DNA of 35,562 nt from Bdellovibrionales bacterium (GTDB taxonomy: Bacteria > Bdellovibrionota > Bdellovibrionia > Bdellovibrionales > JAGQZY01), in NCBI GenBank assembly GCA_020435205.1, contig JAGQZY010000023.1:1-35562 (forward strand), read 5' to 3'. The notes under the pieces are model-generated. The model was given only the letters and a program-made list of their open reading frames with translations. It was not told the DNA's origin and did no database searches. Position 1 is the first letter of the stretch, and each line of letters opens with the position of its first letter. The position numbers were made by a program, and so were the translations under genes. Below, piece after piece: positions 8,846-15,145 of the stretch.

Positions 8846-9874
8846 ATGATGAAACTGGGTTTACAAATTCTACTGTCCTTACTCTTGTGTGATGTGGCCT
8901 TTGCCGTTCGTCTCAAAGATGTCGCCAATCTACGCGGAGTGCGCGACAATCAACTCACCGGTTATGGTTTGGTTGTCGGTCTTAAAGGCACCGGTGATTC
9001 CAAAATGGAATTCACTGGTAAAAGTGTGAAACGTATGCTCGACAAAATGGGGATGAAGGTGGCTGGGGAAGAGATCTCCAGTCAAAATGTCGCCGCGGTG
9101 ATTGTTACCGCAACTTTGCCGCCCTTTGCTCGTGCCGGCAACAAGATTGATATTCAAGTGAGTTCGCTCGGCGATGCCGGGAGTTTAAAGGGGGGGACTT
9201 TGTTACAAACTCCTCTGAGGGCTGCCGACAAAAATGTGTATGCCGTGGCAGCAGGTCCTCTTTTAGTGAGTGGTACCCACACCACGGTCGCCTCGTTACC
9301 TAATGGTGGCATGGTTGAAAAAGATATGGATGCTGAATTCGCTCATCGCAAGATGTATCGCTATACTTTAAATAATCCAGATCTCACCACAGCAGCTCGT
9401 ATCGCAAAGACCATTAATATGGATCTGGGCGGAAAGTACGCAACAGCCATCGATCCAGCGACGGTGGATCTCATCGTTCCTTTCACTTGGGAAGGCAAGG
9501 GTGTGGAGCTTTTGTCCGTTATTGAAAGTTTACAAGTTTTTCCAGATATAAAAGCCAAAGTGGTAGTGAATGAAAAAACAGGCACAGTGGTCATGGGAGA
9601 AAATGTGCAAATCGCTAAAGTGGCATTTAGCCACGGAGATTTGACTGTGACTATTGGCGGAAGCCAAAACTCAAGGCGAGGTCCAGCGGCTTTAAATGCG
9701 CCACCACCAAAGATTGAAAAGGTACATATGATTGAAGGAGCCCAGGATACCGTCAGCGTTGGTGAGCTCGTCCAAAGTTTGAATCGCATGGGCGTCTCTC
9801 CAAAAGACTTGATTGTCATTTTACAAAACATCAAAGCTTCCGGGGCTTTACAAGGAGATTTAGAAATTTTGTAA
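8846..9874 (+). CDS. flgI: Flagellar P-ring protein FlgI
   Basis: A protein of 342 residues, close to the usual FlgI length of about 350-370. A signal peptide (MMKLGLQILLSLLLCDVAFA) precedes VRLKDVANLRGVRDNQLTGY, the standard FlgI mature start. Further blocks are GYGLVVGLKGTGDSKMEFT, ISSQNVAAVIVTATLPPFA, GDAGSLKGGTLLQTPLRAAD and a C-terminal region with SVGELVQSLNRMGVSPKDLI and ASGALQGDLEIL. It forms the periplasmic peptidoglycan ring round the rod. It is the last gene before a 216-base non-coding stretch, where the operon is interrupted. Confidence 0.97.
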   Translation: MMKLGLQILLSLLLCDVAFAVRLKDVANLRGVRDNQLTGYGLVVGLKGTGDSKMEFTGKSVKRMLDKMGMKVAGEEISSQNVAAVIVTATLPPFARAGNKIDIQVSSLGDAGSLKGGTLLQTPLRAADKNVYAVAAGPLLVSGTHTTVASLPNGGMVEKDMDAEFAHRKMYRYTLNNPDLTTAARIAKTINMDLGGKYATAIDPATVDLIVPFTWEGKGVELLSVIESLQVFPDIKAKVVVNEKTGTVVMGENVQIAKVAFSHGDLTVTIGGSQNSRRGPAALNAPPPKIEKVHMIEGAQDTVSVGELVQSLNRMGVSPKDLIVILQNIKASGALQGDLEIL

Positions 9875-9902: not shown

Positions 9903-9908
9903 TATAAA
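9903..9908 (+). promoter_or_regulatory. Candidate -10 element for the flgI-flgJ intergenic RNA
   Basis: TATAAA sits in an A/T-rich stretch (9897-9917), seven to ten bases before the first hairpin of the structured RNA, which is a suitable distance for a start near 9915. No good -35 hexamer is seen at 16-18 bases. The call is therefore weak, and the RNA could instead be cut out of a longer flg transcript. Confidence 0.3.
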
Positions 9909-9914
9909 ATTTTA

Positions 9915-10081
9915 ATTAGGACAACAGGAAGTTGTTCTGGGGGGTGGAAGAAGCGGAGATCGTTACCAAGGAAGGTTCAAGAGTTGAGCAGGGTAGAGGT
10001 CAATACGGCCACCGTTTGGCAAAAGACCTAACTCAGCGGCACAGGAAGTGCCGGTGATCTCGCTTTCCTCCCCGTTTTTTT
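9915..10081 (+). ncRNA. Structured RNA between flgI and flgJ, candidate CsrA-binding sRNA or attenuator
   Basis: About 165 bases with no gene on either strand, folding by eye into several parts. Hairpin A (9918-9938) has an eight-pair stem and the loop AGGAA. A long closing stem pairs 9941-9967 (GGGG, GGAA, AGCG, AGATC, ACC) with 10053-10073 (the complementary run ending CCTCCCC), broken by small bulges, and is followed by seven T residues (10075-10081), so it is also an intrinsic terminator. Inside are a stem around AGGTC (9997-10001)/GACCT (10025-10029), with GCCA-CCGTT-TGGC (10008-10020) inside it, and hairpin D, GGCAC-AGGAA-GTGCC (10038-10052). Hairpins A and D show the same CAGGAAG loop, and 9968-9975 shows AAGGAAGG. 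These match CsrA-type GGA sites. I recognised no known riboswitch, RNase P, tmRNA, 6S or SRP consensus. Confidence 0.75.
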
Positions 10082-10090
10082 CGGCAAGTC

Positions 10091-10783
10091 ATGAAGGTTT
10101 CAAAAAATAAATTTCAAGTTCAACAAGATCCAATGAAAAAATTGGATGATAAGTTGAAGCACGCCGCCAAGCTCTATGAAAAGCAGTTCTTGCGCGAAAT
10201 GATCAAAGCGATGCGGAATTCCGTTTCCCACAGTGATCTTATGAAGCCCTCTATGGCAGAGAATATTTATCGTGAGCAGCTGGATCAGGAGTATGTAGAA
10301 GCTTGGGGAGACCGCGGTGGTGTGGGTTTTGCCGATATGGTTTACAATGAATTAGTAGAAAAATTTTATCCCCAGCTTGGTGGTGCTCATAAACCGAAAC
10401 CGATGCGACCGATTAATCTGAGCGATCGTTACCAGGGGATCAGCCGCTCACTTTCCCACCCGAAAGAGAATAAGCATGTCTTTCATGTGCAAATGGGAGA
10501 GTCCGCACAAAAGAGTTATCTTAATCTTCCTTGGCAGGGAAAATTAGAAAAACAATTTGATTTAGAAAACGGCCAAAAGGTGGCAATGTTTTCTCACCCC
10601 TTTGGTCTAACATCGACTTTTGTATTTAAAGGACAGCTACAGCCTGGACTATTGGACAAATCACTGACTGCTGGGTCCCCATTTGCAGAAATGGCTGGGA
10701 ATTCCCAATCAATCACCTGGCAGGTACAAAGTATGGACTCGCATAAAGCCGCGTCTGTAAAGGAAAATAAGGGATTTCGTTAA
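10091..10783 (+). CDS. flgJ: FlgJ rod-binding protein, without a muramidase domain
   Basis: A protein of 230 residues. Residues about 13-95 are the FlgJ N-terminal rod-cap domain: LKHAAKLYEKQFLREMIKAM, SVSHSDLMKPSMAENIYREQ and DRGGVGFADMVYNELVEK. Residues about 100-230 show no glucosaminidase motifs and are not recognised. FlgJ caps the growing rod in the periplasm; single-domain forms exist in other lineages and use a separate hydrolase. The ATG lies nine bases after the terminator-like U tract of the upstream RNA, and no Shine-Dalgarno is visible. It begins the block flgJ-M-N-K-L-csrA-fliW. Confidence 0.85.
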   Translation: MKVSKNKFQVQQDPMKKLDDKLKHAAKLYEKQFLREMIKAMRNSVSHSDLMKPSMAENIYREQLDQEYVEAWGDRGGVGFADMVYNELVEKFYPQLGGAHKPKPMRPINLSDRYQGISRSLSHPKENKHVFHVQMGESAQKSYLNLPWQGKLEKQFDLENGQKVAMFSHPFGLTSTFVFKGQLQPGLLDKSLTAGSPFAEMAGNSQSITWQVQSMDSHKAASVKENKGFR

Positions 10784-14262: not shown

Positions 14263-14493
14263 ATGCTAGTATTGACTAGGAAACTGGGCGAGAGCATCGC
14301 CATTGACGATCACATTAAAATTCGTGTGGTCCAAATCAAGGGTAAGCAGGTGAGATTGGGCATTGAAGCCCCAAAAGACACCAAAATACACCGTGAAGAG
14401 GTGTATTTATCTATTCAGGATCAAAATAAGGCCTCTACAGAAACGTCTGCAGAAAAAGTGCAAGAAGTGGCTAATCTCCTCAAAAAGAAATAA
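14263..14493 (+). CDS. csrA: Post-transcriptional regulator CsrA
   Basis: A protein of 76 residues. MLVLTRKLGESIAIDDHIKI, the RLGIEAPKDTKIHREEVY block with the RNA-contacting Leu-Thr-Arg at positions 4-6 and the conserved arginine in HREE (about residue 45), are typical of CsrA. The C-terminal tail of about 20 residues ends in a lysine-rich stretch. CsrA dimers bind GGA motifs, mostly in hairpin loops, and usually block translation. GAAGGAG sits about nine bases before the ATG, with another GGA ten bases upstream, so autoregulation is conceivable. The next gene, fliW, encodes its usual antagonist. Confidence 0.96.
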   Translation: MLVLTRKLGESIAIDDHIKIRVVQIKGKQVRLGIEAPKDTKIHREEVYLSIQDQNKASTETSAEKVQEVANLLKKK

Positions 14494-14557: not shown

Positions 14558-14608
14558 TAAATTAACCGCTCACTGGGGATGTGTTGTCTTAATGACACGG
14601 GGGGGAAA

Positions 14609-15145
14609 ATGGTCGTAAATACTACTCGTTTCGGAACTATCGACATTTCAGAAGAGGATATATTGACCTTTACAGAAGGTTTGCTGGGTTTTAATGACCT
14701 AGAAAAATTTGTATTGCTTGATGATCCCAACGATGAAATTTTTGCTTGGCTACAAAGTTGTGATGAACCCAGCATAGCCTTTCCAGTTTTAGAGCCTGAG
14801 CTTTTTGAAGAAAATTTTAAATTGCGCCTGACCAAAAGTGATCTTCAATCTTTAAAGTCTGAAGATAGCGCTCAGTTGCGCTCTTTTTGCATTATCACCA
14901 TTCCTGAAGATCCCGCACGCATGACGGCTAATCTTAAAGCGCCTGTGGTTGTTAATGTCAGCCAGCGCTTGGCTCGTCAGTGTGTTTTACAGGACAACAA
15001 GCTGGAAATTCGGGAGCCCATTTTTAGTAAGCTTCAACAAAGAGTTGTGCAGCACAACCCTGAAGCTATCAAAAGTCAGGTTTCTGATTGGGGTGTGGCT
15101 GTTCGCCTAAAAGATGGCAAACGAACTCCTGAAGCTGAAATGTAA
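14609..15145 (+). CDS. fliW: Flagellar assembly factor FliW
   Basis: A protein of 178 residues. TRFGTIDISEEDILTFTEGL followed by LGFNDLEKFVLLDD, then FAWLQSCDEPSIAFPVLEPE, FCIITIPEDPARMTANLKAP and VVVNVSQRLARQCVLQDNK, are the FliW signature blocks. In Bacillus and epsilon-proteobacteria FliW binds either CsrA or flagellin, so that secretion of flagellin frees FliW to inhibit CsrA. The ATG at 14609 follows a GGGGGGGAAA ribosome site; the frame is also open from 14579, but the extra ten residues lack support. Pairing with csrA is conserved in many lineages. Confidence 0.95.
   Translation: MVVNTTRFGTIDISEEDILTFTEGLLGFNDLEKFVLLDDPNDEIFAWLQSCDEPSIAFPVLEPELFEENFKLRLTKSDLQSLKSEDSAQLRSFCIITIPEDPARMTANLKAPVVVNVSQRLARQCVLQDNKLEIREPIFSKLQQRVVQHNPEAIKSQVSDWGVAVRLKDGKRTPEAEM

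Follow-up and report, generated by a model that had tools for sequence, protein, structure and literature searches.

The 216-nt gap between flgI and flgJ in the flagellar operon of a Bdellovibrionales bacterium holds a structured RNA that is the orthologue of APsRNA1, a small RNA of Bdellovibrio bacteriovorus HD100, and that is very probably a CsrA-sequestering sRNA of the Csr/Rsm type, here in bacteria with a CsrA of the FliW-regulated type, the same operon carrying fliW farther downstream, although no binding data exist. We assign a probability of roughly 0.75 to the reading that the gap RNA is an APsRNA1-type sRNA that sequesters CsrA beside FliW, the binding and the titration of CsrA both being inferred. 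This CsrA-sponge reading and the spread of the RNA through its class are new; the transcript itself was already on record. The DNA analyzed (the window) comprises positions 1–35,562 of the forward strand of contig JAGQZY010000023.1 (assembly GCA_020435205.1), and the features of the window given below all lie on its + strand.

The gap, bounded by the flgI stop at 9874 and the flgJ start at 10091, had been placed within a flagellar gene block by the original prediction, and the gene coordinates and Pfam identities of its neighbors bear this out. The gene for the P-ring protein, flgI (8846–9874; Pfam FlgI, E = 3.5e-109), is the 5′ neighbor of the RNA, and flgJ (10091–10783; Pfam Rod-binding, E = 2.6e-11) is the first gene past its terminator. 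The order of the operon includes flgG, flgA, flgH, flgI, the RNA, flgJ, flgM, flgN, flgK, flgL, csrA, and fliW, with csrA (14263–14493; PF02599, 90.3 bits) and fliW (14579–15145; Pfam FliW, E = 3e-37) lying, as had been claimed, ∼4 kb downstream in the same block.

The multibranched fold proposed for this gap was upheld: the MFE of the window RNA (9909–10081) is −66 kcal/mol compared with −50.1 ± 3.8 kcal/mol in dinucleotide shuffles (z = −4.24), and none of 200 shuffles was equally stable. The match of the covariance model R1 (see below) to the window extends over the same 9909–10081 at full model length with 82.9 bits, a score that is not independent because the window sequence is among the 51 used to build R1. 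In the MFE fold, hairpin H1 (9916–9940; arms 9916–9925 and 9931–9940, loop AGGAA at 9926–9930) forms CsrA-type site 1 and is followed by the 5′ strand of the closing stem (9941–9962), whose 3′ strand lies at 10055–10073 and which is also supported by covariation. These two elements had been drawn at 9918–9938 and at 9941–9967 with 10053–10073, respectively, and both were recovered within a few bases. A third GGA near 9968–9975 had been assigned to an open junction; the motif is present (AAGGAA, 9968–9973) but forms the loop of a 3-bp ACC/GGU hairpin, H2 (ACC[AAGGAA]GGU, 9965–9976), which is CsrA-type site 2 and which, together with the UUCAAGAG right after it, is the most conserved sequence block of the RNA. 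The inner arm (9983–10037) is the counterpart of the hairpins H3 and H4 found in other species, and both GGA sites are lost from it here (CAGGGU stands at H3). Hairpin H5 (GGCAC[AGGAA]GUGCC, 10038–10052), a further CsrA-type site, has its loop AGGAA at 10043–10047, as had been seen by eye. The seven T residues noted after the closing stem are likewise in place at 10075–10081 and constitute the U-run, which makes up an intrinsic terminator together with that stem, as judged from the sequence and from the 3′ end of the HD100 RNA in the homologous U-run; a simple terminator scan missed this terminator because the stem is multibranched. The window copy has 3 GGA in hairpin loops compared with 0.7 in shuffles, 1 of 40 of which reached 3. 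The observation of a structured RNA is confirmed as more than chance.

The window RNA matched no Rfam family at the gathering score, and sub-gathering matches to the L13 leader, IRES_Pesti, and STnc230 were judged to be chance. Similarly, the Rfam models of CsrB, CsrC, RsmX, RsmY, and RsmZ did not match the window RNA (E ≤ 10) or seven orthologues (E ≤ 1). The earlier statement that the RNA resembles nothing known thus holds for Rfam but not for the literature, in which the orthologue figures as the unexplained APsRNA1. In HD100, APsRNA1 occupies 499,375–499,581 (+; 207 nt), has a mapped start site (Karunker et al. 2013, PMC3627812), and reaches 50,451 RPKM in attack phase compared with 3,181 RPKM in growth phase; that paper found no FliA promoter, proposed no function, made no family or CsrA link, and reported no homologues outside B. 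bacteriovorus (PMC3627812). Our text searches of the literature revealed no further paper on APsRNA1 and none tying Bdellovibrio sRNAs to CsrA.

The R1 match in the HD100 genome (G031:499374–499585) coincides with APsRNA1, and, as a check of the coordinates, the c-di-GMP-I riboswitch of that genome was located at 1,073,868–1,073,951 (minus), on the strand reported for merRNA and within its reported interval. The mapped start of APsRNA1 lies 5 nt 5′ of H1 and its mapped end falls within the U-run; because these ends fit the boundaries of the RNA, the orthologue is indeed made as an RNA from a start of its own. The original prediction would have been refuted by the lack of a transcript of this size; for the HD100 orthologue such a transcript, with fitting ends, is on record (PMC3627812). 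The window RNA shares the locus and boundaries of APsRNA1 and meets the criteria of its orthologue group (flgI-flgJ synteny, an R1 match, and the five-hairpin plan). Whereas APsRNA1 as published had no function, the present analysis shows an RNA that is composed of GGA hairpins and occurs across the class. Transcription as a separate RNA with its own start and terminator, one feature of the Csr/Rsm type, is supported for HD100 by published data and for the window by sequence only. In HD100 (locus L125, about 295–326), a further hairpin carrying a T-run (AAAAAAGGTACATCCGTACCTTTTTC) lies between the APsRNA1 terminator and flgJ.

The first blastn search detected the RNA between flgI and flgJ in the sister species as well and the 16-mer AAGGAAGGTTCAAGAG in the corresponding gap of other families; the remaining matches of plain blastn against relatives were mostly chance 15–25-mers, only the same-genus match and those of AAGGAAGGTTCAAGAG being real. 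In viral contigs, a 16-mer scan picked up 23 matches, which were taken as chance without individual inspection. We chose 80 regions 3′ of flgI by FlgI positions and read them together with the earlier loci: nearly all flgI-flgJ gaps were ∼200–370 nt long (a few were longer) and contained many GGA hairpins. The covariance model R1, made from a MAFFT alignment of 51 orthologues (A2), revealed the RNA in 111 of the 141 genomes of the order (E ≤ 0.1), with one strong match each, a count that includes a few doubtful weakest matches. R1 matches adjoin flgI wherever both are listed on one contig, and three genomes of another order in the class, which were absent from the training alignment, matched between flgI and flgJ with E values of 3e-22 to 5e-29. 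Matches weaker than ∼1e-5 were unreliable (that in G007 falls within a coding frame), and we grouped with them the weak match in G122 and partial matches in G083 and G259. The two adjoining partial matches in G083 (C7:414925–415114; E = 0.002 and 0.08) lie away from flgI and are possibly a second GGA-rich RNA or chance. A contig titled 'MAG: Streptomyces griseus' (CALQIT020000063.1, L178) carries a Bdellovibrio-type RNA and apparently stems from a mislabelled bin.

We found csrA in 132 of the 141 genomes of the order, including 103/103 near-complete ones; because every near-complete genome has csrA, its co-occurrence with the RNA is uninformative and was dropped as evidence. The genomes of the order without FlgI have csrA but gave no credible RNA in the R1 search. 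Therefore, the RNA tracks the flagellar operon and not csrA as such, and CsrA has no general need of it. In the FlgI-less genomes of family f4 (e.g. G056, G113, G117, G119, and G132–G134), csrA is kept, with several lower CsrA scores; because it is kept there without flagellar operon or RNA, CsrA must serve non-flagellar duties in these bacteria. Two genomes of genus g10, which belongs to family f8 (G040, locus L135, and G091, locus L136), have flgI abutting flgJ, and the RNA was found nowhere else in them although csrA is present, which is a natural loss of the RNA. Other members of the genus (L108, L119, and L134) have a strongly diverged copy.

Outside the class, R1 gave one weak match only, and a restriction of the RNA to the class, as inferred from R1 alone, was rejected when the reading of gaps and a second model, R2, revealed a diverged form. 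This form has conserved CCAGGAAACAG, GCUAGGAUGGUGGG, and GGCAUGGAAGCC in the flgI-flgJ gap of other families, and R2 matched it in 47 genomes (families f20, f22, f24, f26, and f27), directly 3′ of flgI wherever a FlgI position was listed. Common descent of the two forms appears likely from the sequences, although it is not proven, because they share the same site and a similar core and because R1 gives matches in the sense direction with values down to 3.5e-5. Family f12, with many genomes, gave no convincing match by R1 or R2; the few flgI-flgJ gaps of this family that were read are short (about 46–105 nt). Across loci L201–L220 (f20, f22, f26, and f27), the flgI-flgJ gap contains a GGA-rich diverged RNA; a strong hairpin spans the flgJ start region in L220, L210, L213, and L219, and a hairpin with a U-run comes after the diverged RNA in L201, L203, L202, and L206.

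A lack of covariation across homologous flgI-flgJ gaps would have counted against the original prediction; in A2, however, covariation was strong. The hairpin plan had 82.8% paired cells compared with 73.0% after shuffling of the 3′ letters and 38–52% after sliding of the partners, and both sides of a pair had changed in 254 cells compared with 107 in the shuffled and 38–116 in the slid controls. Double changes occurred in 31 of the 44 pairs of the plan, among them 11/11 in H1, 5/5 in H4, and 3/4 in H5, where 99% of pair cells were paired. Because the sequences are related, these figures are not probabilities, but the slid control, in which the relatedness is preserved, scores far lower. As a single member served to draw the structure, its paired-cell score is somewhat favored. 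GGA is conserved at the homologous hairpin loops in 49 (H1), 48 (H2), 48 (H3), 42 (H4), and 50 (H5) of the 51 orthologues, and in 24 of them at a further, sixth position within the closing stem (column 57); MFE hairpin loops contain 3.8 GGA per RNA compared with 0.69 in shuffles. Several conserved, above-chance GGA hairpin loops, a second feature of the Csr/Rsm type, are thus present, although the window copy keeps only three of the five, at H1, H2, and H5, and is without the H3 and H4 sites. In control analyses, APsRNA1 had 4 GGA loops compared with 0.62 in shuffles (0 of 60 reached 4), whereas the other seven published attack-phase (AP) sRNAs of HD100 had no GGA-loop excess (six had none, and merRNA had 3, which 15 of 60 shuffles reached).

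CsrA binds GGA motifs, preferably in hairpin loops, and its high-affinity sites take forms such as the SELEX consensus RUACARGGAUGU and the CsrB repeat CAGGAUG. The typical GGA loops of the orthologues (CAUGGAUG, CAAGGAUUG, and GCAGGAUGC) have the same form. Because the loops are conserved and the stems covary, the GGA loops appear to be held fixed while the stems change in a compensated way, a pattern that a CsrA ligand with several sites would be expected to show; this inference is made without binding data. CsrB/CsrC and RsmX/RsmY/RsmZ of the Gammaproteobacteria are likewise free-standing, terminator-ended sRNAs with several GGA hairpin loops, and the number of sites (3–7) is comparable to that of the small Rsm RNAs. 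The window RNA differs from them in having no Rfam match and in sitting in a flagellar operon; moreover, their hosts are without FliW (PMC7652899), whereas the hosts of the window RNA have FliW and a FliW-type CsrA. The flaA mRNA leader of C. jejuni (PMC4894983) is likewise flagellar, carries GGA stem-loops, and titrates CsrA in a bacterium that has FliW, but it belongs to a coding mRNA and has two stem-loops, whereas the window-type RNA is non-coding and separate, has up to five, and ends at its own terminator. The merRNA of B. bacteriovorus, also abundant in attack phase and a proposed sponge (for c-di-GMP), differs from APsRNA1 in locus, ligand, and structure and has no GGA-loop excess.

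Alignment to solved CsrA/RsmE revealed that the window CsrA keeps L4 and R44, and a host CsrA with intact RNA-binding residues, a third feature of the Csr/Rsm type, is therefore present. The N55 and the C-terminal extension of the window CsrA are features associated with control by FliW (PMC13407953) and place the protein in the FliW-regulated type. Gammaproteobacteria are without FliW (PMC7652899), and in this respect their Csr system differs from the present one, in which FliW is present. Csr sRNAs and FliW have been reported to be anti-correlated, and their joint action on CsrA is undetermined in any species (PMC7652899, PMC4894983). Flagellin is a likely target of CsrA in the window's genome because one flagellin leader (L190/L191, G000:C101) has the plan of CsrA-repressed flagellin leaders, with a GGA-loop hairpin (GCAUCA-AAGGAUA-UGAUGC) 5′ of a Shine-Dalgarno sequence, AAGGAGGA, that contains GGA.

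Transcription of the gammaproteobacterial Csr sRNAs is activated by BarA-UvrY/GacA. In the window, a consensus scan yielded a −10-like element, TAAAAT, at 9905–9910 (1 match compared with 0.7 expected, weak alone), and the RNA is predicted to start at ∼9916. Most readable orthologues have a TA(A/G/C)(A/G)AT element ∼29–33 nt 5′ of the H1 GGA (25 nt in the window), and the mapped HD100 start at 499,375 lies 6 nt past an element of this type. An inverted repeat, TGTTTCGNANTGAAACA, is found 5′ of the −10 element in many orthologues (f8 and f10; e.g. L114 at about 60–80, L106, and L072); it is analogous in place to the GacA box and is a candidate site for an unknown activator of the sRNA. In some relatives, TTTTGACA replaces this repeat, and members of family f10 (L072, L073, L067, L076, and L078) have an extra conserved CTGGCCTCGACCGCGAAAGTGTTTCGA 5′ of the promoter region.

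We posit that the flgI-flgJ gap would encode a small RNA of ∼170–210 nt, made from its own start inside the flagellar operon and ending at an intrinsic terminator, as published for HD100 and inferred for the window. Its GGA hairpin loops, up to five and in the window three, would bind and sequester CsrA dimers, so that in the swimming attack phase the abundant RNA would draw off CsrA and the targets of CsrA, probably flagellin and other attack-phase mRNAs, would be released. The RNA would work in this way beside FliW, a second (protein) CsrA antagonist of the same operon. Against a sponge stand the absence of CsrA binding or genetic data, a window transcript that has not been observed and a window copy with only three of five sites, the flagellum-less genomes that keep csrA without the RNA, and the persistent location of the RNA between flgI and flgJ, close to flgJ, which exceeds what a free sRNA needs.

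The last two points bear on the strongest rival explanation, which we consider unlikely overall: that the RNA is a conditional terminator or leader of flgJ-flgM-flgN-flgK-flgL-csrA-fliW, with CsrA on the nascent RNA altering read-through and hence autoregulating the operon half that includes csrA, and with the short RNA as a by-product. Not only is the flgI-RNA-flgJ synteny fixed in nearly all orthologues, but the U-run lies a median of 32 nt from flgJ (<45 nt in 31 of 49 and 9 nt in the window), often leaving no room for a promoter, and the downstream genes, including csrA, therefore probably use read-through or upstream promoters. A 3′ hairpin also spans the flgJ start region in G305, G315, G316, and G322, of other families, and the FlgI-less genomes are without the RNA, yet csrA stays. 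However, against an attenuator stand the separate mapped start and abundant short form in HD100, the five redundant GGA loops, which exceed what it needs, a terminator that uses the closing stem only and not H1, H2, H4, or H5, and the further hairpin and T-run that precede flgJ in HD100. The roles of attenuator and sponge are compatible, and an extra cis role is not excluded because the terminator lies so short a distance before flgJ.

The conservation of CAGGAAAC and of the segment after H2 (GGUUCAAGAG) beyond GGA indicates that something else is also selected, and because UUCAAGAG and CAGGAAAC are conserved in this way, a structured sRNA unrelated to CsrA, serving another RNA-binding protein or base pairing via UUCAAGAG or CAGGAAAC, still remains possible. 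We regard it as improbable, and more so than the attenuator, as the invariant element in five separate covarying hairpins is the loop GGA, a recognized hallmark of CsrA sites, and nearly all of these genomes carry csrA. A chance fold or an ordinary flgI terminator without regulatory function would fit the position at the end of flgI and the U-run but hardly the fold (z = −4.2), the excess of double changes over the shuffled (254 compared with 107 cells) and slid (38–116) controls, the finding of one significant match each in most of the order's genomes and beyond them in a second order, or the primary 5′ end mapped in HD100; in practice, it is refuted by the published start site together with the conservation.

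Sequestration of CsrA by the gap RNA thus remains the preferred reading, and the original prediction is supported in its principal form, albeit without binding data. A wider proposal, which we put forward only tentatively and think rather doubtful as a whole, is a double-antagonist circuit in which FliW and the sponge RNA would control CsrA from one operon, the terminator would also gate the csrA-fliW half, so that the RNA would act in trans and in cis, and the diverged form would be its counterpart in other families of the phylum. Known Csr sponge RNAs come essentially from Gammaproteobacteria; here, a candidate is found in FliW-containing bacteria, and FliW and the candidate sponge occur together across a class of predators and their relatives, encoded within ∼5 kb of each other. 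Overall, the CsrA-sponge reading would assign a function to an attack-phase sRNA published without one, and the RNA may offer a post-transcriptional handle on the switch between attack and growth in Bdellovibrio.
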